Shown here: one piece after another, positions 1,460-15,733 of the stretch
How positions within the stretch are numbered: the stretch's first letter is position 1
How the letters are laid out: every line of letters starts with the position of its first letter
Assembly (NCBI GenBank): GCA_000310025.1
Contig: FN649749.1
Coordinates: forward strand, 317,169-337,886
Source of the DNA: Ectocarpus siliculosus
Lineage: Eukaryota > Sar > Phaeophyceae > Ectocarpales > Ectocarpaceae
Reading direction: 5' to 3'
DNA: 20,718 nt
Notes under the pieces: model-generated
What the model saw: only the letters and a program-made list of their open reading frames with translations
Told to the model about the DNA's origin: nothing
Database searches by the model: none
Position numbers and translations under genes: made by a program

Positions 1460-3996
1460 TCAGTCCTCGAAACTGTAGGATATCAGGTGTGTCGGCCTGG
1501 CGGCGGCATCGTCGTACACCACGACCTCGTCAAAGTTCAGCGACCCCCCCTGCTCTTTGGTCTGGATAGACAAAATGTAGAGGGAAATGGAGGGGCGGGG
1601 GAACCGTAGCATGCAGTTGCATGTATTTGCAGTCAGTGTGCACGTATGTCCACGACCAATATCGCAACTAAAGCAAAATTTATCATCGGCGTTTCAGCAA
1701 TTCGAGGAGACCCTTTACCCTACCGTGCTTTATTCCTACCGAAATTGCTACGGGGGGAAGAAAGCCAAATTTTCGGCACGAGCACGTAAAGGATACATGC
1801 ACATCGTGTCCGGACTCTTCGCGCCTTCAATCCCATGACAATGAACAGGCATCATCCATGTATTTGTGCACATCCGTACGACTTGTGCCGTGTCTCGCGG
1901 CGTACACTGTAGCTGGCCGCCTGAGTGCTCGTCTTGCTAAATGCCCGTGAGCTGGTTGCTGCTAAAAACAAGATACGTGGACGATTCGTCGTTCTTGGGC
2001 GATTCTCTCACCAGCCCTTCCGTAGAGTCATACCCAGGCACTGGGCAGGATTGCTCGTGAAGATTGTGGGTCTTGGCCTGGAATGCTCTTCCTAAGGAGA
2101 CTTTACACACCAGCATCACGTGGTGACGTTGTAGCCCCAAGTTTACCTGCCCACGGGCAAAACGGGTGCACGATAGCCAATCGTACGGTCAGATGTCGGC
2201 AGAAAACTCAAGTGGCAGCTGCAGGTCTCTTTTTGCGAAAAACTCAAGTTGTGTAGGTCCACTGGTGGTGACGGTAGGCGAGAAAATTGTTTCAAGTGGT
2301 GAGCAGAACAAGTGTTGGACGACATTGATCGCGACGGCAGACCCATGTAGACTAGAAAATGTGTCCGAGTTGCGGGATGGGTCCTCTCGAAAACTAAACG
2401 GTGGCTGGTTCAAACCTGTAGTACTATTTCTCCCGTGCACCTGATATTAGATGTACGAACGAAGTGGACCATTTTCGAGCATTAGGAACCAAGCCATCCG
2501 ACATTCAACTGGCTCAACCGCGCACCCAAGCTCTACTCCTAGCAACTCCGTCACACACACAAGCACACGCACACAAAAGCACACACCCTGGTTCTGGAGT
2601 AGTCGTTCGCCTTGCCCGAAGTCTTCGAGAAATATAGTCCGTTGCCATATCTCAACTGAAAACTGGAGGAGCGCGCGGTTCTCCCCACTTTCTCCATCGT
2701 GAAGCCTTTCATGCAAATAGTGCAGACGCTGCACGTCCGACGGCCGCACGGCCCTACCTGCGGCGGTGCAGGGAATGTTTTTGGCGCTCACACCATCGCC
2801 CCTCTCACAAGAATGGAAGACATTGCTGAAATTTTTGTAGGATCCACAGTTCCAAACATGAGAAACCGAGCCTCGAAACGAATTGTAGTTTCCTGTAAGG
2901 GGACCGGTGCTGTATCAGCCAGTGAGGTGGGCGGTACTGTACTGACCATGTTTTAGTTGGATTTACTTTGTACGGCTCTAGCGACAAAATAATATCACAA
3001 GGGGAGGTACTGAACACCGGCGAGCAAGGTACAATGGATGGCAAAGAAGGCAAGCGCTAAAAGAGATCGAACTTTGAAGGGATGCATGTATTCAGAGACA
3101 CAGAGATTTCAAAGACCCGTTGATGCCACTGCAAGGATCAAGCGTGTACACCATCTTGAATTCCCAACAAGTCAACATCCAAACTTGTCACTAGCCAATA
3201 TCACATGGTACCCCGACGGCAGAACGAGTGATCGCACCTGTTCCTTAACGAAAAAATCACATGCTGAGTGACAACGCGTGCCGTGGTACGCGACGCAGAC
3301 TTCTCCCTTGGAGGTGTGGTAGGCCTCAATCTTCCTTGCAAGATCATCGTTTAACTGGTTCGTTCGGTGTTGGGCGAGGGAAATGGTTAGCGTATGTTTA
3401 CATCAAAATCCACATAGATTATGACCAGCGATCAATAAAGCATACAAGTACCGGACTTCTCCCTGCCATGGAATTCTGCGGGTCACCGGTAGTGCGCCTC
3501 TCTAACCGAAACAGAGAGGTGGGGTAATTTTAACTTCCACAGGGAGAGACAATGACGAAACTCTTCGCGTGTAAGACCACGGCGAAAAACCATGGGTGTT
3601 CGTGTATGAACAGACGCCATTTGGCAAGGACCCGCACCCCCAGCAAGAACGCGAAGCCAATGCTGTTACCTGGATCTCGTAGATTCTCGCAACGTCGGGT
3701 GCTGGGCCTTTCTTCCAGCACTCCCGGAACTGGTTGGCGAGAACTTCGAAGTCCGGGTGGTCAGAAGCAAGCCTCAATAGAGTGAACTCCGTCATGGCCT
3801 TGGGGTGCCATACTCTGAACCCTGCGATGACATGATCCTGATCGCCGTCCGATGCCTTTGTCTCCTGCCCCATCTCTATCGCTGCCCAGTACGGCGCATG
3901 GTTGGTGTACGCATGTACTCCTCGGGAACGTACCGTGAAGCCCACGACACCTCCGTTGCGCGTGCCAGCACAATAGGATAGTAAAACCACGCAGCC
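1460..3996 (-). other. PARP-type ADP-ribosyltransferase catalytic domain (exons 14-18)
   Basis: Residues about 685-967. Exon 14 (3996-3670) carries the lead-in, with FEVLANQFRECWKK and ARIYEIQ at its end. Exon 15 (3354-3238) has the NAD-binding HGT in VCVAYHGTRC (H817). Exon 16 (2757-2587) has a Cys-rich stretch CGRRTCSVCTIC followed by YGNGLYFSKTSGKANDYS (Y874). Exon 17 (2146-2012) has HHVMLVCKVSLG and GYDSTEGL. Exon 18 (1561-1460) has SLNFDEVVVY (E946), then RPTHLISY and the stop. The order H...Y...E with conserved flanks is the hallmark of PARP/diphtheria-toxin-like ARTs. All three residues are present, so the domain is predicted active; whether it makes mono- or poly-ADP-ribose cannot be read here. 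The Cys cluster between H and Y resembles what I recall of fungal and oomycete PARP-like proteins. Confidence 0.85.
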
Positions 3997-6900
3997 CTGC
4001 AAAAATGAGACGTTTACACGTGCAGGTAAAAGAGCAACTTGCTGTAGAGGGCTGGGCTTACAAAATAAAAATGTTGTAATCTTCTCCCATTTGTGCGCGT
4101 CCATCACACGGCGGTGCGTGTGTGTGATCGTGCGGTACATACGTACGGATAGCCATGGGTGTCCTCCAATTGTCTGCATGTGGATGCATGTTGCAGGACC
4201 ACAAACGGAAAAGCGACATACTGTACACACGCTGGGCAAGTTCCTTGGTTTCAGGACGGAGATCCACGGGTTGAAGTGCCTTGTCAAACACCATGACCCG
4301 CTGAATCGCACCGCGTAAACTTTGTACTCGGAGTATGAATTGTTTCTAAATAGACTATTTTATTTAAAAGGCAGTGGTACCGCCTCTATCCTTGACCTAT
4401 AACGGTACGAACAAGTTAACGGTGGACACACAATGTGATTTTCTCGCATATTTACATAGTGATAGTCCACCTCCCTGTGGTTAACAGTCTCAACAAGGAT
4501 TGGGAAAATTATAATGCTGTGCTTCATGCGCACTGGTGTGATATGCATTCGAGCAAAAGGTGACGCGGCCCAATCGCAGTAGCGTTGCGAGATGTTGCCA
4601 CGAAACGTAAGGCACGACCACCACCTCCCCTCCAGCTCTACCGCTTGGCGGTTCGTCACCTGAACAGCTGCCATGAGTGAGGTGAAGAGCGCAAAACCGA
4701 GCGTGGGTCCGTATGGAATCGCGTGGAAGTCTTTGGGGCGTAGCGAGCGGCGAACATGACCATCCCCGACGAGCAGCACCGAACAGAAGGACGACGGCGT
4801 GAACAATGAATGAGCTCGTAAAATATGAGATCCCTCTGCGGTCGGGTACACGAACGAGTTAACTACATTCGTTTTTGGTAATCAAAATTCACAAACGGAA
4901 CGGGCTTATCGAATGCCTTACCAACCTCGCTCTTGGTCACAAAGGAACCCACCCCGTATCTACATCCGGTTCCCAGGCGGCGTTTTCTGGCAATGTCAGG
5001 TACCTTTCGATGTTTGAAGACTGCTTACGTACGCTTTCACGTTTACGGAGATCAGGAAAACTTCTGCCGGGGTGCCAACAGCGCACGGGCGGGCAAAAAA
5101 AGCCACAACCGTCGGGGAGAAAATGCATCTGCTCACATCGATTCCGAATCCCTGACATTATGCAGAGAACGACGAGCTGCGTCAAGGCGTACAGCACGAG
5201 CAACCACCCTCCCAACCAGCCCAGGTTGGTCGACGTTTTCGTTGGAGCAACGGCAGACCCCACGAGCATCGCGAAAGCGAGAGAACAGCAACAGGTAGCG
5301 AAGATCTGCAAGTCGACGGCAGATTTGTCTGACAAAAAGGCGTTCACGCCAGAAGGAGAACGCGGTGCGTGACGGATAGGTAGGTGCTGAGTTACGACGC
5401 GCGGAGTTCCGAGCGTGCAAGCATATCTCGGAGAAAGGCTCTCTTGCGTGGATGCGGTGTTCGTTTCCGTGTGACGCAAGCGTGTTGTGGCGCAGATTAG
5501 CTCCTCAACTTATAATGTTTGTGTTGTTAGCGCGTAATGGGCGCATCATGCGACGGGGGAATGTATACCACTCACATGTTTCGCAATGCTCCTCGTCGCT
5601 GTTCGTGCAGGAGTCTAACTTGCCTCTGTCACGAAGCCAACCATCGTCGGCAGCAATGATCACGGAAAATAAGAACGTAATCATCGAGCTGGCTGCTGTC
5701 GTCCAATAGTGAACCGATTGGAACCCGTTCTGCTGAGGCCCGAAACGAGCCTGCAAGAACCATTCGGCGAGGGAGGAGGGGTCGCGGGAGTGGGACGGAC
5801 CGAGTTTGGTAGAACATTCTTGGCTCCAGCAACTGCATGTACGTGATCGCGAGATCCCTTGTGAACAGTGAAAGCTTCCCTACAAAACTATGATCCTGGC
5901 CTTTGTTTCCACTCACAAAGATCGGGCCATGGATGCGGCACTGTGGGTGCCACCAGAAGATGCCGAACGCCTGTGCAGCAGCAACGAAGACGCTCGTCAC
6001 GGCAACGGCGAAGGTGTCGCCGTAGGGGTCGTCCTTTAAGTCTGGCAACGTGTTGGACGGACAGAGAAAAAACAACGCAAGTGCTGGAAACGAGACGACA
6101 CACTGCATATTATCTCAACCGTGCAACGATTCACCTCGGCGCGCACGCGATCGCGACGCTAGACGCGGCCTGCGGTGCTTTTGTTCTCTCGGGCGAGCCT
6201 CACGGTCAGAACGCTGTCGACGTGGCGCCTTGCGACGCCCGTTTCCGAAAATATATCATATATCACAAGATTAATCAATCAATACTACGGCCGTCCGGTG
6301 ATACAGGTATTTCGTGTTCGGTCAGGTGGGTGGGGCTGTGCCGCATGCTCATGCCTCCAAAAGCGAAAACATATCTACAGTACGTGTCAACGACGACCTC
6401 GAAACGTTTGGAAACGACACCCAAATGAACCAAAAGCGGTAAAAGCATCCTAGCCAAGCGGACTCGCCTCTAACGCTTGATGGAGGTCTCTTCTTTCGCA
6501 CCAAGCGGTCACACCCCGCGATTGTCGTCAACACGTTCGAAAATGGGATCGGTGCACCTCATGTACACCGAAATACCGGGAAAGTTTTACCACAGAAGGA
6601 GCACCTTGCATCGCGGAATGCACACGATCGGTATTGCCTTCGTCTGTGGTCTTCTTGGTCGTGTCGTTTGTAACATTTTTGAACAAGTATCAGGGCAGTT
6701 GTGGCGGAGGGACACTACTGTGGGCCTTTTAAAACGCGGGGCCAGAAACTCTTTCCAACGTCACATTCTCACATTCCTCCTTGATACCCGCCACGACGGC
6801 GAACGCCAGCAACTGCGTAGCGGCGTAACACAGGAGCCCCCAGGCTCCGGTCTTCACGAGCTCTTGGCGTTGAAGGGCATCAGGCACGAGAGGTCCGGCA

Positions 6901-9900
6901 GGCCGTTCGATTATGGTAGCCAGCGCCAGTGCTACCACCGCACATGAACAAACCACGGTGGCCAGATACTGGATCAAGGTGGCGATATAGTCTGGTGGCA
7001 GGGGTTCCAATGATGCCGAACGACGGCAGGGCGGGGAAAACGATGAGATGGCGTGGAAATGAGATGTTTGTGATCTCCTCGTGCAGAGGGGAGGAGAGAG
7101 TGAACGGCCAATGCCTTGGGTTAGGTCGAGCGTGCAAGCCGAGGGAATATATAGCTGTCGATCGTACCATACCCCCTACGACACGACAAATATGTGTGGT
7201 GCAACGGGTTCGTAAAAGGGGACACATTGCCATCATCTTATTCTTGCCTTACGTGAGCGATACCGCAGAGAGACCAATGTCATTTTGTGAGGTTTAGCCT
7301 TCAGCTTTGTCGCGGTTTGAGTTGGTCTTGTTAGGCAGCAATTTGTACTGTCATGTGCTCCAGCTTGTGTTGCATGTGAACACCTCCTCTACAAAACCCT
7401 AGAGCGATGTACCATACGTCAATATCATCTCAGGACCCACGCCAACGACCGCAACAGAGAAAAAAGTGCTACTGCATACAATAATCTCAAAACCACGTTC
7501 AATTTGAGCCAGTCGTACATCCAGGGCAGAAGTCGTCGCTCGAGTAGTCTCCGCAAGTCCCGCCCAATGCGAGGTCCACCGAAGATCCGACCCATTGGTT
7601 GCCAGCTGCCCCCTCAATCGCAAACGGCCACGTGATGAGCAACGCGCTGGCGATTACGGCGTGATACGCGTTGTATACAGTGCAGTATCGCCCCTGTTGC
7701 AGACCGAAAGGGGGGGGGGTTCTTGTCAAACAAACGGGAGCATCATACGTAAGCGGGTCACGGTCCCTGGGCCGTGCGTACACTTTTTCCCATGATACAG
7801 CTCTGCACGGCTCAAAAATCGTGTGGGAGGCACCCGTTCCAGAGGAGTGCAGCGCCTTGGCAAAATAAAAAATGCAGTACGTACCACGGGGCATACGGCG
7901 ACACTCACAAAATCATGGGCAGTATTCTCGTTGTGGAAGATGCCGCCGTTGAATGTGCCGTGGTCGCGAAGTAGCGACAAGGCGATCGCCTGCAACATCA
8001 CGAACACGGTGGCCGTGATGGCACAGTTGTACGCGTCGCCACGGCTTACTGCCGGTAAATCTGCAAGTTTCCACGATTCGTTTGAACGTGCTGGGATGTT
8101 AAAGTGCACCCCTTCAGTGTGTTTATGCTCCGAATTGTTTTGGGCACGGGCTAAAACTCGACGTCCACACAGTCCGCGGCGTCGTCACCACTGGCAGCCA
8201 TACGCCAGCGATAGACAAGCGATCAGAACGTCTACATACTTGTCAATCGCACTTGGAAGCGGTGGGGGTGTTGCTACGGCAAGATGTTGTTAGAGTGGTT
8301 CCTCGCCGCAGCGAAGTCTTCGAGACAAGTTTCTGCAAGCCAGCCGTCCAAAGGCTACTTTCTTCGCGCAGACGTTCAGCAGTAATCGAGAAACTCACCG
8401 CGATTCCTTAGGTCCGTCATCACGATGAACACAAGAAACTCCGCCACGGTGAACACCAGCAACCCCCACACGCCGGCCCTGCCGAGCTCACGCGACGAGA
8501 TCAGGCTGCTTCGCCAAGGTGGCGGTTGCCCCGCACCCCTCGCCCCTTCGACCGGGGAGTGGCTTTCGCCCCCGTAGCCTTTTGCGAAGGCTGAAAGAGC
8601 GAGGAGCAAAACCGCCACCGAGCACGCCAGCGTTGCGATGTATTGGAATGCGGTTGCAGTCGCGTCTGCGATGTGACGGGAGACAAACGGCAAGTTTTTA
8701 GGTTCGGTTTGCTCTTGGCAATGTGAACTATTCGATGAGAGCTGCACTGAACAAATATTATTCCCGCAATGGCCTTAATTTCTGGCGGTCGACACGTCGA
8801 GCCAGACGTTGCGTCAGCTCTTCGAAATATTCCATGCCTTTCACACCCTTTCGTCAACCGCAAGTGTAGCATAGAAGCCGCAGAGCGATCGTCCCTTTCA
8901 CATGTATGGTACCGTTTCTATGCCCCCCGTCACCATTTTAAAGAATTCGCACCACTTTTCGTCGAAGCTACAGTAGTAAACAACGAGGGAGCCGAACACC
9001 CTCATTCATAACCCAAAGCATCGCAATGTCGGGCATTTTGTCCCAGAATGGAAGTAGGCCGTTTTCTGTCGTCGACACTTGTGTTCAATTTTCCACATTT
9101 GTTGGGTCGTTTCGAATTGCACACGCAGCTAATGCATAGTTGTTGGCCCCGCACTGGGGAGCGGCGTGACTCCTCGTTTCCTCGTTTCAACAATACGAAC
9201 TGATGCAGGTTGGTCGGGCTGTTTTGCGTGAGCGGCACTCACACCGGGCGCAGAAGCCGCCGCCGCCGTAGCACTCGTCCCCAAGACTGAAGTTGCCCCC
9301 TTGAAACCATGTGTCCGCAGCCGCCGCCACGACGGCAAGTATCCAGGTTAACACAGTGCTAAGCACCACCCACCAATACACCTAATATCGCGAGTTGCGT
9401 GATGAGGTTCGAAGGACAAAATGCACAGGGTAGCAGGCGATGCCGAGGGCCGGATGACGCGTTGTGTTTCGCGCTGGTATCCGCTTTCTGCATCACTCTT
9501 GTATTGTCCATGGCCGAGAGGCACACACAGGTGTTCCAGGAGACCGTAACGATATGAGCTACATACCAACGGTAGCGTACATGCGACTCACTAACGAGCA
9601 CCCAACGCCGTCAGTGGTTGTTGCCGACATGTGTTTTAAGGTCTAATTTCCCTCAGACTCTACTTTATCGACACCTTCTGTTTGGACGGTGTGATGGTAA
9701 AGGCGGCGGCTGCTACTACTGACAAGAAGTGCCGTTCATGCCCCACAGGGGCCACTCTTGGAAAAGGTGCGCCACAGCAGCATCCAGGAACCATTGTCGA
9801 AGCTACACAGTAGCTCGCCACCACGAGGCAGTGTATTACGGCGAAGGGCATGATCAAGTTTTCCTGGGTGAGGTGAATCACTTACTTCCGATCGTATGAT

Positions 9901-10157
9901 ATTCGGGGGACAAGGAAGATAGGCCTCAAATTTGAGTCGCTTCTACTCAGGGCGCCGTTGTCCGATATGAAACGGCGCAATTACAACAACAACACCAACA
10001 ACACCTGCAACGAGAGCTAGGTTGCAGCCTAACCAGGTGAAAATCCTGCTAGCTGTGTACGTACATGTCGACTCTACCTATGAATGTGGCGTGCACCGTG
10101 TGGTGTGTGTCTTGTGCATACCTGGTCCTTCCAAGGGTCGTAGTCGTCTACCCGCAT
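1460..10157 (-). CDS. Polytopic membrane protein with tandem 4-TM modules and a C-terminal PARP-type ADP-ribosyltransferase domain (18 exons, ~967 aa)
   Basis: Proposed exons, 5' to 3' on the minus strand: 10157-10122, 9863-9664, 9590-9497, 9381-9243, 8665-8399, 8090-7909, 7693-7519, 6991-6773, 6083-5917, 5729-5576, 5328-5137, 4814-4660, 4300-4229, 3996-3670, 3354-3238, 2757-2587, 2146-2012, 1561-1460. Every proposed intron is GT-AG and the sum is 2,904 nt, a whole number of codons ending in TGA. The start ATG at 10157 is the first in-frame ATG after an upstream stop and has G at -3. Residues 13-660 are hydrophobic, with about 14-15 membrane segments in four related modules; 685-967 carry the ART fold with H817, Y874 and E946. 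By family knowledge, such domains transfer ADP-ribose from NAD+ to targets; the substrate is unknown. The module family was not recognised. The weakest joins are exons 2/3, the acceptor of exon 12 and the exon 13/14 junction. Several separate genes remain possible but fit less well. Confidence 0.68.
4229..4300 (-). other. Linker exon between the membrane part and the ART domain
   Basis: Exon 13 begins after GCGATTCAG in phase 0, matching the phase-0 end of exon 12, so the membrane segment runs straight into RVMVFDKALQPVDLRPETKE. The stretch is polar and helix-prone and is not recognised. The 3' end is ambiguous: CGT|GTGTAC at 4229 keeps phase 0 into the well-supported acceptor at 3996, whereas the better-looking donor GTATGT (exon end 4222, phase 1) would need another acceptor upstream of the ART exon. 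Confidence 0.45.
4660..5328 (-). other. Membrane module 4 (exons 11-12), lacking the third exon of the triplet
   Basis: Residues about 545-660. Exon 11 (5328-5137) follows a TTTTTGTCAG acceptor, contains IFATCCCSLAFAML and GGWLLVLYALTQLVVLCIM, and ends GIRNR plus one base before GTGAGC, matching the ends of exons 5 and 8. Exon 12 ends at 4660 with PYGPTLGFALFTSLMAAVQ before GTGACG, phase 0 as in exons 6 and 9. Its acceptor is uncertain: 4814 keeps the frame, while an acceptor closer to PYG at CCCAAAG|AC would make a shorter exon. The acceptor just upstream of AGGGATCTC would create a TAG stop at the join, so it was not used. No third exon was found before the linker, leaving three membrane segments. 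Confidence 0.58.
5576..6991 (-). other. Membrane module 3 (exons 8-10)
   Basis: Residues about 365-544. Exon 8 (6991-6773) aligns with exon 5: IQYLATVVCSCAVVALALA, then GAWGLLCYAATQLLAFAVV and a basic/acidic end (GIKEE) before GTGAGA. Exon 9 (6083-5917) follows a TTTCCAG acceptor, contains DDPYGDTFAVAVTSVFVAAA and ends HGPIF before GTGAGT. Exon 10 (5729-5576) contains VHYWTTAASSMITFLFSVII and ends EEHCET plus T before GTGAGT. Lengths of 219, 167 and 154 nt fit the same phase pattern as module 2. In-frame stops lie just past the donors, as expected for intron sequence. Four membrane segments are predicted. Confidence 0.68.
7519..8665 (-). other. Membrane module 2 (exons 5-7)
   Basis: Residues about 157-364, the cleanest copy. 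Exon 5 (8665-8399) starts after a strong acceptor (pyrimidine-rich, ATCGCAG) with AC at phase 1. It has two membrane segments, around IATLACSVAVLLLALSAF and GVWGLLVFTVAEFLVFIVM, and ends LRNR before GTGAGT. Between them is a longer Gly/Pro/Ser-rich loop than in the other modules. Exon 6 (8090-7909) has one segment (AITATVFVMLQAIALSLL) followed by a polar stretch ending AHDF before GTGAGT. Exon 7 (7693-7519) has YHAVIASALLITW and ends DDFCPG plus one base, before GTACGA. Exon lengths of 267, 182 and 175 nt exactly suit phases 1-1, 1-0 and 0-1. Confidence 0.68.
9243..9863 (-). other. Membrane module 1 (exons 2-4), most divergent copy
   Basis: Residues about 13-156. Exon 2 (9863-9664) has a hydrophobic stretch around LIMPFAVIHCLVVASYCVAS and a weaker one ending VVAAAAFTIT. 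Exon 3 (9590-9497) has a segment around WYVAHIVTV. Exon 4 (9381-9243) begins VYWWVVLSTVLTW and ends in a Cys- and Gly-rich stretch (ECYGGGGFCAR). Exon 4 matches the third exon of modules 2 and 3 in position, phase 0-to-1 and the terminal T before a GTGAGT donor. Exons 2 and 3 are less like their counterparts. The 2/3 join here uses a phase-2 donor at 9663 and an acceptor just upstream of 9590 (a 73-nt intron); the ending AAG|GTGTCG at 9675 is an alternative. Confidence is high for exon 4 and moderate for exons 2 and 3. Confidence 0.5.
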
Positions 10158-12429: not shown

Positions 12430-15400
12430 ATGTGGAGTTCACGTCGCCCTGTGTGCGCGCTGTCGGCATGCAACGAGGCCGTGTACCAGGACCCCGTAAC
12501 CGGCCAGGAACACGACTTCTGCGGAAGGACTCACGCCACTTTGTTCAAACAGCAGCAGCAGCAGCTCCAGCACCAGAAGGCGGCGACCTTCAGGCCGGAC
12601 CGATATAAGCTGGTACCCACGGCCGTCCTTCGATCGGGCGCCGTGAGGAACAAGCACAAAAGCAACCCCAGGCCAAGCGGATCGCACACCTCTGCTGGGT
12701 ATAACCATGGTCACCCGACCGCTGCTGCTGCCAATGGAGTAGTAGTAGTAGCGTTGCCACCTTCTGCGCAACAGACGCTTCCCATCACCCACCACACCCC
12801 GAAAGTGCCGCAAGCATTGAGGGTAACGGATACGATGGTGTTGTTCTGGAACCCGCCGTGTGTGTTCACGCAGTGGGAACCGGCCCTCTTTGAAGTTGAT
12901 GGGGTGAGTTCAGACGCAGAGTATCGACACAAGCTAAATGAGCCCAGCTTCAATGTGTAACATTTCTTGTGCCAGGTCATGGGTTCGAGTCCCGCCGAAC
13001 TGAGTTTTTTCTCACGTTCGTTGCTGGTACCTGGTACAGCAGTACATTGAAAAAAAACTCGTGAGGAACTAAATATACTTCGACTTCACTGTTGACGAGG
13101 GTGGGGAGGGCTGAACCTTGCTCGCGATAAAAATATCATGATGGGGTGTCCCACCTGCCCCCTCCTGTCGTCTAGCTAGTAGGTGAAGAGGAGGAGGCAG
13201 GAGACGAAAAAACACTCAAGTTCCATGAGGTACTCGGGACAAAAAAAAGAGCACCACCCGCTAGTTGAAGTGCTTACTGCAGGCGGCCGGAACAAAAATC
13301 TGTTTGTCTGTGTGTGTTTCATGCCATCTATTCTTTCGTTCGTGGGCGAACCAGCCGGGGTGACACAGGAGTGAGGTACATAATTTAGAGAGGATTTTTT
13401 TTCTTAGCCTTCCTTCTGCGGCGTTTGCCCTATTTTTTTATCGCGAGAAAGGTCCGGCCGTACTTACCTCGTTGACCGTGAAGTCAAACGTTGGGTGCCC
13501 ACGACGAAATAATTATCGCCCTCCTCCTGCTGGGCATGATGATGTGAGAAAAAGTCCCAGTTCGTCACTTCATCAACACTCGAACTCTCAAAGATTTTCG
13601 AGGTTACCAACTGAACTGAGCCACCGGGGGCAACGGTATTTATCTGTAGAGGTTAACAATATTATTATTGTCGATGGAAAATCTACTTTAAACTCCCCCC
13701 TGCTAATGTACAATACTGCCTAGGCTACGGCTGCTGTTTGTAGAAATCATAATTCACCCAATTGCCGAAAAGCTTTCGTCTAAATTCCGCTTTAATTTCT
13801 GCTGTGTCTTCGAAAGGCATCCTCTCTCTGGTTAGCGTACAACTGTGGTAAACGCGACAGGAACCAATCGTCCATCCGGTAACCAATTTTCAGTGTATTA
13901 GAGAGAAATATTACCTTCCTCGTCCTCTTTTCCATCGTGCTGAGTCAGCTCACGTAACCCCCCCCTTCCGACAGGTCAAATACTGCAGCGCGGAGCAATA
14001 CATGATGGCATGCAAGGCCAACGTTTTCGGCGATACCGACATTTGGAACAAAATCATGAGCACGAGCGACCCTGCACAACAGAAACGGCTGGGGAAAGAG
14101 GTCGCCAATTATGATCACGGCATTTGGAACCTGTGCAAGGTTCAGTTTGTGCTCACGGGAAACTACAGCAAGTTCACACAGAATCCCGGCATGTGCGACC
14201 AACTTCTTGCAACGGGAGACAAGGTGAGGAGATGGGTTGGTAATGCAGTCCGTGGTGTATATCTTCCGTTCTTGCTTGTTTTGTGCTTTCCACGCTGGTA
14301 CATCGCGACGGTGCACGTTCAGGAGGGATGAGCTCACAGGCATTTGTAGGCCACTGAAAAATACAAAGAGTTTCTCCGTGTCCACTCCGAGGGAATCAAT
14401 CACCCCATCGGTTCATCGGGTGCGTGCAAGGCGATGCTCACCGTCTTCTTGCGATATAAGTACAACCAGGAGAGCACTCGTCGCCAGAAAAAACTCAAAC
14501 TCGTCTGGCAATGATGCTGGGGTGACATCAGAGATGAAAAGCGATTGGATTGAATGACAAACACGCATATGCAAATAACCTCGCATACGACGTGCCGCGT
14601 CTCCTCATCATATGGCTGCCCCACCCACTGGTTTGCAACCGACAAAACGAATGCCATCAACCGAAGTAGCTGCAGCAGCAAGTAACTTCAGTAGCCGCAT
14701 ACAAGAGTCATACTCCTCTCCAATTGAGAGGGAATTAAACTAAGAATCGCCTCGTCGGCCTTAGGGGCGCCACCTCTCATCCGGGGCAGCACGTTTGACA
14801 ACATCCACCTGGTTTGGTGCGAAACCTTCGGACCGAGCTTCATTATTTATGAAAAATAGTCATGAAAAGGAAGGAATCCCCCCCCCCCGCACGGTTCAGC
14901 ATCAGCATGCATGCTCAGCTCTTTGCCGGGCATTTTTGCTGTTTTTCCTGCGTCGTAAACCCTTGCATTCCTTTGCAGTTGTCCACGCTTGGGTATGGAG
15001 CAAGAGCTGCAATGCATCTTTAGCGTTCGGATAGCTCAGCCAGTTACGCCACCTGCACAGTTTTTCGAGTAGTAGGGTGGACTCGCGCCCGTAGTGACCC
15101 AGGGAAACGCCCAAACACGGTGAATTGATGCAAAGTTCGTCGTTGCCTACGTTGGCCTATCCTATTCAGCTTGTCCAGTTGAAGCGGTGCCAACCCATCA
15201 ATGCCGTAATAACTAGCCTAGATCTGCACGCTGTTTGTATCTCTGCCACCCTGTCCCTTGCCTTCATCTACATCCGGGAGATGCTAGCGGAAGCTAGTCA
15301 GCATGACAAGGTATGGGGGATCGGCATGGACGCATTTGATCCCAACGTGGAACGTCACGAGTGCTGGCGTGGCCAAAACCTGCTGGGGAAGATTCTCATG

Positions 15401-15733
15401 TATGTGCGCAACAAGATCAGGTGGGAGCGCCCTGACCTCGCCAGCCGGCGCCAGGTGCAGGAGGCTGCTGCCGCTATGGAAGCGGAACATCGCCTTATCC
15501 CTTCAAACGGCCGTTTCGTATCGGCGGCTGGACCGGCCATGACAGCGGATTCCCTGGGTGCATTAAACATGACGGCGTTACAGACCCAGCTGCACTGTCC
15601 CGACATGGGATTGCGTGCGCCTGTGACCGCACCCCCCACTCTCGGAGAACCCGCACCCGAGGTATTCATCGCTGTTGCAGCGGTACAGCAAAACAAAGCC
15701 GACACGGACGCGAAGACGCCGAGCAAGAATTGA
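12430..15733 (+). CDS. NADAR (YbiA/DUF1768) domain protein with N-terminal Cys/His motif (3 exons, ~391 aa)
   Basis: Exons 12430-12903, 13975-14223 and 15281-15733 (stop TGA); introns of 1,071 and 1,057 nt, both phase 0, with donors GTGAGT and GTGAGG. The start ATG sits in ACCATG. The frame is open upstream to 12247 without another ATG, so a further 5' exon is possible. Residues 9-36 hold C9, C14, H28, C31 and H35 around YQDPVTG and HDFCGRTHA, a putative zinc-binding motif. Residues 37-130 are low complexity, with a Gln run. NADAR spans about 134-290: MVLFWNPPCVFTQWEP, then YCSAEQYMMACKA and GNYSKFTQNPGMC, then HDKVWGIGMDAFDP and CWRGQNLLGKILMYVRNKI, with family-typical residues E165, K172, W253 and N in the last motif. 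Known NADAR enzymes cleave N-glycosidic bonds in riboflavin intermediates or remove ADP-ribose from guanine. The C-terminal ~100 residues are Ala/Pro-rich and unrecognised. Confidence 0.85.
12454..12537 (+). other. Putative zinc-binding Cys/His motif at the N terminus of the NADAR protein
   Basis: The encoded pattern is C-x4-C, then YQDPVTG, then HDFCGRTHA. The spaced cysteines and histidines suggest a small metal-binding fold. I recall similar motifs in stramenopile and fungal proteins that also carry ART or WWE-type domains, but could not check this. It may direct the NADAR domain to a partner or nucleic acid. Confidence 0.5.
12941..13139 (+). mobile_element. tRNA-derived SINE, copy 2 (in NADAR intron 1)
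   Basis: B box GGGTTCGAGTCC at 12981-12992, then GAGTTTTTTCTCAC, then the family tail TTCACTGTTGACGAGGG ... GGCTGAACCTTGCTCGCGAT with an A-rich end. The head is more decayed than in copy 3. It lies inside the intron starting at 12904, in the same direction as the gene. Confidence 0.68.
13303..13372 (+). repeat. Fragment related to the sequence following direct repeat B
   Basis: TGTGTGTTT..CCATCTATTCT and, further on, CCAGC.GGGGT.ACACA match the stretch at about 17741-17845. This suggests another copy of the same dispersed repeat inside NADAR intron 1, next to the inverted SINE. Confidence 0.45.
13432..13630 (-). mobile_element. tRNA-derived SINE, copy 3 (inverted, in NADAR intron 1)
   Basis: Read on the minus strand, it starts CCCCCGGTGGCTCAGTTCAG with a good A box (TGGCTCAGTTCAGTTGG), then GAGTTCGAG as a B-box remnant, GACTTTTTCTCAC in the body, and the tail CACGGTCAACGAGG ... 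GGCCGGACCTTTCTCGCGAT followed by an A run. It faces copy 2 in the same intron, so the pair could fold back in the pre-mRNA. Confidence 0.68.

Follow-up and report, generated by a model that had tools for sequence, protein, structure and literature searches.

A probable fusion of a twelve-segment membrane array to a PARP-type ADP-ribosyltransferase in Ectocarpus siliculosus

We analysed a 20,718-nt stretch of the Ectocarpus siliculosus genome (the window; GCA_000310025.1, FN649749.1:317,169-337,886, forward strand) and find that its minus strand probably encodes a single protein of 800 aa, in which three tandem tetraspan modules (12 helices) are followed by a C-terminal PARP-type ADP-ribosyltransferase (ART) domain with an intact H-Y-E triad. 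The initial annotation had proposed that a PARP-type ART is attached to a polytopic membrane part built of repeats. That core is the best-supported reading of the window, but its counts (four modules, 14-15 segments) and its statement that internal starts are absent did not hold, and its sensor or channel-like role found no support. The fusion model comprises 15 exons that join without a stop or frameshift, listed here by window position; the E-values for module exons come from profiles that contain the exon itself.

10122..10157, minus strand: proposed first exon (MRVDDYDPWKDQ), with the sole ATG of its own open frame; donor gtatgc, phase 0
9243..9381, minus strand: module 1 TM1 and Cys-pair loop (TM1 profile 8.9e-23; phase 0 in, 1 out)
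8399..8665, minus strand: module 1 TM2 and TM3 (TM2-3 profile 2.6e-31)
7909..8060, minus strand: module 1 TM4 (TM4 profile 3.3e-26)
7519..7693, minus strand: module 2 TM1 and Cys-pair loop (TM1 profile 5.2e-27)
6773..6991, minus strand: module 2 TM2 and TM3 (TM2-3 profile 3.3e-32)
5917..6041, minus strand: module 2 TM4 (TM4 profile 3.1e-27)
5576..5750, minus strand: module 3 TM1 and Cys-pair loop (TM1 profile 1e-24)
5137..5328, minus strand: module 3 TM2 and TM3 (TM2-3 profile 4.4e-33)
4660..4730, minus strand: first part of module 3 TM4; phase-0 donor gtgacg
3670..3996, minus strand: proposed bridging exon with the remaining module 3 TM4 (GCVVLLSYCAGTRNGG), a linker and the start of the ART, placed by TM4-profile ranking of acceptors and by coding score
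3238..3354, minus strand: ART exon with the catalytic His (YHGT, codon 3285-3283)
2587..2757, minus strand: ART exon with a Cys cluster and the catalytic Tyr (GNGLYF, codon 2634-2632), placed by Pfam PF00644 and profile alignment to tankyrase
2012..2146, minus strand: ART exon, HHVMLVCKVSLGRAF...GYDSTEG, placed by Pfam PF00644, solved-chain and paralog alignments
1460..1561, minus strand: last ART exon with the catalytic Glu (FDEVVVYD, codon 1528-1526) and the stop, placed by the same three alignments

The first exon, too short for testing, is the least certain of the model. A search of Rfam returned nothing at gathering scores.

Upstream of the ART lie three homologous four-helix modules, each with four of the 12 hydropathy segments. 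In comparisons of the three modules with each other and with a single-module relative, 6/6 pairs scored above all of 300 class-preserving shuffles each (z 15.6-28.0), which bears out the claim of repeated polytopic modules on the strand of the ART. The TM1-exon and TM2-3-exon profiles each find three places in the window at E <1e-20, with the next matches at 0.08 and 0.32, and a fourth module was therefore rejected; hydropathy likewise gives 12 membrane segments rather than 14-15. The Cys pair of loop 1 occupies two columns that are invariant in all five aligned modules. The exon triplet that encodes each module is phase-symmetric (0/1/1/0) and could therefore be duplicated in tandem. No known channel or receptor family in Pfam matched the fusion model or the modules over its cut-off, and nothing shows sensing or conduction.

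The ART (~3798-1460, minus strand), searched alone, matches PF00644 at 51.6 bits (1.1e-13; cut-off 26.7), confirming its PARP-type assignment. An earlier 809-aa model scored 39.3 bits against the same cut-off, and the fusion model holds no Pfam family besides PF00644. The triad falls at H650, Y707 and E779, and its spacings of 57 and 72 residues are the same as those of the H817, Y874 and E946 first reported; those numbers are 167 higher because the present model has 800 aa. His and Tyr are invariant in 7/7 aligned ARTs, and Glu in the 5/5 rows that extend that far.

Read from acceptor 3996, which has a clear pyrimidine tract, the bridging exon can finish helix 4 of module 3 and then continues stop-free in frame into the ART. 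Between 4359 and 3502 this ART exon has no stop in its frame, so a transcript that enters through any phase-0 acceptor of the frame is bound to read on into the ART. With a TM4 profile made without module 3, the preceding exon, 4660..4730, scores 7.1 bits (window E 0.18); alone this is not significant, yet it is the best new place. With a four-member TM4 profile, acceptor 3996 ranks first among the 36 open acceptors at 24.3 bits, compared to 17.6 for the TM4 exon alone and 15.4 for reading through. With a three-member profile it reaches 15.0 bits and ranks fifth of the 36 (best 17.2 at 4083; read-through 10.4). AG-started open peptides equalled the acceptor-3996 tail on the TM4 profile in 42 of 14118 cases, in a pool that includes the window.

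A distinctly less probable arrangement is that of two same-strand neighbours: a 12-helix protein whose stop codon is 4362-4360, plus a soluble ART that starts at Met 3873 (MGQETK...), at Met 3795 or upstream. The frame is indeed open from the module 3 TM4 exon to that stop, and in-frame Met codons at 3873 and 3795 within exon 3996-3670, with three more between 4359 and 3997, would permit a separate ART; the earlier statement that there are no internal starts was wrong. However, reading through finishes TM4 worse than the TM4 exon does alone, and the full read-through (4659-4363) has a coding score under all 492 coding windows, so that it looks non-coding. Its first 33 codons are not clearly intron-like (96/596 and 152/694 intron windows score as high; 0.003 in an earlier scoring), and local alignments of the tails slightly prefer the read-through (sum 57 vs 52 for the bridging exon), both of which fit two genes.

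The 41 codons that precede Met 3873 tend instead towards coding. Their score is reached by 8/406 and 23/420 held-out intron windows (2-5%), and in an earlier control by 0.2% of 826 intron windows, with the trained sequence inside the yardstick. This coding-like score disfavours an ART that starts at Met 3873. The 41 codons directly upstream of 3996 score intron-low, with 0/608 coding windows as low, which favours the fusion; the second half of the stretch (3933-3874) is weak (249/1061, 409/1341), which counts against it. Two genes would also have to fit a promoter and a 3' end into only ~0.5 kb. In an anchored comparison, the bridging-exon tail matched module 1 (15), and did not match module 2 (-9) or the C27 relative (0). 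As good a match to module 1 was found for 8/1202 window peptides and 31/12194 paralog-region peptides; on the sum, it was equalled by 47 window and 336 paralog-region peptides and outscored by three acceptors within the ART exon. A 27-nt exon at 4173-4147 was dropped for its low coding score (-0.333); compared to the direct splice, it changes the fit by +0.3-0.6 bit with the three-member TM4 profile and by -4.6 bits with the four-member one.

The genome holds two single-module genes, both on contig C27. As both stop after helix 4 (TM4), they support the fusion; they end at a stop within the TM4 exon, which also suits two genes. A genome-wide search for the module matched only this locus and C27 (16 scored candidates, E ≤0.01). 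At least 14 other loci carry an ART of the same family, and none of the 11 with flanks examined has a module nearby (200 kb, 8,035 bases N; three C15 loci fall outside this sample), a further point for two genes. The ART clusters on C26 and C483 have finger-like motifs nearby, without the membrane module, and one ART intron matches in place and phase in both C483 copies examined. Beyond the genome, 13 pattern matches in viral contigs included no ART relative, and 1 of 47 pattern matches in prokaryote genomes was a relative, on an apparently chimeric contig; the module was not detected in that prokaryote genome, a negative that carries no weight.

Collectively, the bridging-exon TM4 fit and the coding score give a single protein moderate sequence support beyond the compatible intron phases from which it was originally proposed, and we consider the fusion probable. 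It is also compatible with an unlikely variant in which one locus yields two products, the full fusion and a soluble ART made from an internal start; the Met codons at 3873 and 3795 offer such starts, and the family's other ARTs lack a membrane part. Very improbable is a decayed or misassembled locus, with the fusion a non-functional remnant. The fusion occurs once in the genome, and the window ART is 42-51% identical to six chosen paralogs, most of which share 51-78% with one another, as decay might leave it; but the 15 exons join cleanly, the triad is intact and the window contains no N.

If the fusion is real, the symmetric module triplet would have duplicated in tandem, and a phase-0 intron would then have linked the array to an ART whose family elsewhere in the genome shows no array. 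An even number of helices and the loop charges favour an ART in the cytosol, the compartment that contains NAD+, and paired-Cys loops that are outside or luminal. In the model, the inner loops and C linker have a net charge of +7 and the outer loops -12; at odds with this topology are the N end, with 2 K/R against 4 D/E, and a net +2 on outer loop o6. Like the join, the topology has moderate sequence support. A membrane-tethered ADP-ribosyltransferase is the best reading, and the ART would most likely modify targets beside its own membrane, in a logic comparable to that of membrane-anchored PARP16, whose catalytic domain lies on the cytosolic side. ADP-ribosylating activity, the kind of membrane, the substrates and any regulation by the modules are inferences only.

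A divergent neighbouring gene carries two features.

12463..12552, plus strand: finger-like motif (CNEAVYQDPVTGQEHDFCGRTHA), resembling motifs beside ART paralogs (E 3.9e-4 on C26, 5.4e-4 on C483)
13975..15412, plus strand: NADAR domain in pieces 13975-14223 and 15275-15412 (Pfam NADAR 7.9e-48, joined pieces; C24:331134-331391 in the genome-wide NADAR search)

The finger-like motif matches no Pfam family. It is a highly speculative idea that the tetraspan array regulates a cytosolic ART that acts as writer, with the finger-NADAR protein as eraser, in a eukaryotic ADP-ribosylation pair at a membrane that perhaps acts on nucleic acids, as NADARs remove ADP-ribose from guanine. NADAR matches in the genome number at least 150 (of 230 candidates, 150 were scored), a large share of them within long open frames, and Gypsy elements of Ectocarpus carry NADAR, according to part of one report (PMC12477816). 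For these reasons adjacency is weak evidence of pairing: given 150 copies, the chance of a NADAR within 10 kb of any of the seven ART clusters is ~10%.

PARPs are mostly soluble, and our search of open-licence literature found no polytopic-membrane PARP. If a catalytically complete PARP does carry a 12-segment array, a known enzyme family would gain a new architecture; the fusion would also point to membrane ADP-ribosylation in brown algae and provide an example of an enzyme gene capturing a phase-symmetric exon array.

Among tetraspan families, MARVEL and PMP22/claudin proteins share the four helices of the window modules, and the Pfam scores lie below both cut-offs. The first C27 relative comes closest (MARVEL, PF01284, E 1.5e-4, 22.3 vs cut-off 32.8 bits; PMP22/claudin, PF00822, E 1.9e-4, 21.8 vs 26.7 bits), window module 1 reaches MARVEL only at E 4.8, and modules 2 and 3 and the second C27 copy match neither family. 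Claudins have a Cys pair in their first loop, resembling the invariant pair of the window modules.

Among enzymes, the nearest solved chains to the window ART are PARP4 and the tankyrases. Like these, it exceeds the PF00644 cut-off and has the H-Y-E triad, for which a role in PARPs is described in the portion of PMC2964712 drawn on here; it aligns to tankyrase from the Tyr onward and to PARP4 from before the His. It differs from them by a Cys cluster that follows the catalytic His (PCGRRTCSVCTIC), common to its paralogs in this genome, and by the membrane array in front. The membrane forms of PARP described in the consulted part of PMC4245714 have one transmembrane region. PARP16 (ARTD15), a membrane-associated ADP-ribosyltransferase in the excerpts consulted (PMC4245714, PMC3372510), has one such region at its C-terminus (PMC4245714), and clade 6, to which it belongs, is without the triad Glu in the same portion of PMC2964712; the window protein has 12 N-terminal segments and the Glu. 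From residue 556 onward, its best 19-residue hydropathy is 0.68, which does not fit a single PARP16-like C-terminal anchor. A sponge PARP has its transmembrane domain at the N-terminus (PMC4245714, in part): there too the membrane part precedes the PARP domain, with one domain named in that text compared to the 12-segment repeat here.

We assembled the minus-strand gene at 10157-1460 from motifs and splice sites inspected by eye. The model, which had 16 exons in an earlier version, now encodes 800 amino acids from 15 exons, with GT-AG borders at 14/14 introns and a single, terminal stop; its 36-nt first exon is a guess. Three membrane modules precede the ART domain, each composed of TM1 with a Cys-pair loop, TM2-TM3 and TM4, and each carried on an exon triplet with phases 0/1/1/0. 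The initial annotation had counted four modules and 14-15 membrane segments. Hydropathy gives 12 segments, and the TM1 and TM2-3 profiles each find three significant places in the window; as these profiles contain the searched exons themselves, the informative point is the absence of a fourth.

Searching the whole host genome (189 Mb, 492 contigs) for modules returned 11 matches, nine of them in this gene and the others at only two places, both on contig C27. The EsV-1-7 repeat, which is expanded in brown algae, has at least 150 matches in this genome, consistent with a brown alga. The genes from the module search are:

C27:5001-12500, first single-module tetraspan gene (L049)
C27:19101-22100, second single-module tetraspan gene (L050)

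These genes lie about 14 kb apart. Each spreads one module over three exon pieces and stops shortly past TM4, leaving a short tail. The first resembles MARVEL (1.5e-4) and PMP22/claudin (1.9e-4), both under the Pfam cut-off, and the second showed neither similarity in Pfam. All six pairs among the three modules and one single-module relative outscored every one of their 300 class-preserving shuffles, with z between 15.6 and 28.0; module 3 in this test already contained the bridging tail.

The ART domain matches PF00644 at 1.1e-13, bearing out its earlier assignment as PARP-type. The catalytic set claimed for it is likewise complete: H650, Y707 and E779 keep the spacing first described (57 and 72). 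Among solved chains, a single-sequence search places PARP4 closest (2e-5) and a profile search tankyrase-1 (4.9e-12). The central ART block has 24 genome matches, five in this gene and the rest in at least 14 other places. Six paralogs, pieced together from exons, share 42-51% identity with the window ART. In the alignment all 7/7 rows have the catalytic H and Y, and the glutamate is present in the 5/5 rows reaching that position. The paralogs cluster at C483:239000-288000 (on both strands), C26:3.53-3.54 Mb, C96:50-66 kb and C15:5.47-5.48 Mb, and are a locally expanded ADP-ribosyltransferase family. Finger-like motifs occur near the clusters on C26 and C483, and no module lies near any of the 11 ART loci whose surroundings were examined. 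Pieces of ART exons, with 61% and 35% identity to the window ART, also occur in CALJOJ010000022.1 (4001-6585; L051), filed as a Rubritalea MAG; long bacterial-looking frames run up to about 3830 with the ART pieces after them, and the contig looks chimeric.

Whether modules and ART form one gene or two depends on the bridging exon, 3996-3670. The module-3 TM4 exon terminates at 4660, inside the helix. Splicing to 3996, an acceptor preceded by a clear pyrimidine tract, extends the helix (19-residue hydropathy 1.97); two separate genes would instead have this exon read through to a stop at 4362-4360. With a TM4 profile that combines the two C27 genes with modules 1 and 2, the 3996 join ranks first among 36 open phase-0 acceptors (24.3 bits; runner-up 3837, 22.1), against 15.4 for read-through and 17.6 for the TM4 exon alone. 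That score is equalled or beaten by 42 of 14118 AG-started open peptides, a pool containing the window itself. Support from the profile is nonetheless not firm, because without the second C27 gene 3996 falls to fifth of 36 (15.0; top 17.2 at 4083; read-through 10.4). Summed local alignments are larger for read-through (57 vs 52). In an anchored test the tail resembled module 1 only, a likeness matched by 8/1202 and 31/12194 control peptides. Several other high-ranking acceptors (4083, 3837 and 3798) share the frame of 3996, and splicing at any of them would also yield a fusion.

Coding signal was scored on both sides of acceptor 3996. A first codon score, trained on 2288 codons, none from the bridging exon, gave 0.035 for the 41 codons before Met 3873, matched by 0.2% of 826 intron windows, a yardstick that overlapped the training sequence. 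With a training set of 1598 codons drawn from other genes, and left-out introns as the test, 8/406 and 23/420 windows reached the score of these codons. The signal sits in the first 21 (reached by 16/1016 and 58/1282 windows); the following 20 carry none (249/1061 and 409/1341) and may be intron, because a candidate donor, gtacgt, lies at 3933. The 41 codons directly upstream of 3996 score at intron level, lower than all 608 coding windows. The entire read-through scores lower than all 492 coding windows, its first 33 codons being intermediate. The ART-exon frame is free of stops from 4359 to 3502, so any transcript entering it must continue into the ART.

Next to the ART gene lies a divergent neighbour:

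12463-15412, plus strand, finger-NADAR gene (finger-like motif and NADAR domain, 7.9e-48)

Its finger resembles the motifs that lie close to the C26 and C483 paralogs of the ART. NADARs, eukaryotic ones included, undo guanine ADP-ribosylation (available text of PMC11543638), and a functional pairing of the two genes is suggestive only. NADAR has at least 150 matches over many contigs of the host genome, many within long open frames, consistent with the Ectocarpus Gypsy elements that carry NADAR in the available text of PMC12477816.

The product of the fused gene would be a membrane-tethered ART. Loop charges, counted between borders placed by eye, favour a cytosolic ART (inner loops and C linker +7, outer loops -12), the N end, at net -2, and outer loop o6, at net +2, being misfits. 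We found no support for the sensor or channel-like role once proposed for the membrane part. For comparison we used PARP surveys (available portions of PMC4245714 and PMC2964712), and found no polytopic-membrane PARP in the open-licence PMC literature searched. The available portion of PMC4245714 places PARP homologues in Ectocarpus siliculosus and describes a C-terminal transmembrane region in PARP16 and an N-terminal transmembrane domain in one sponge PARP.
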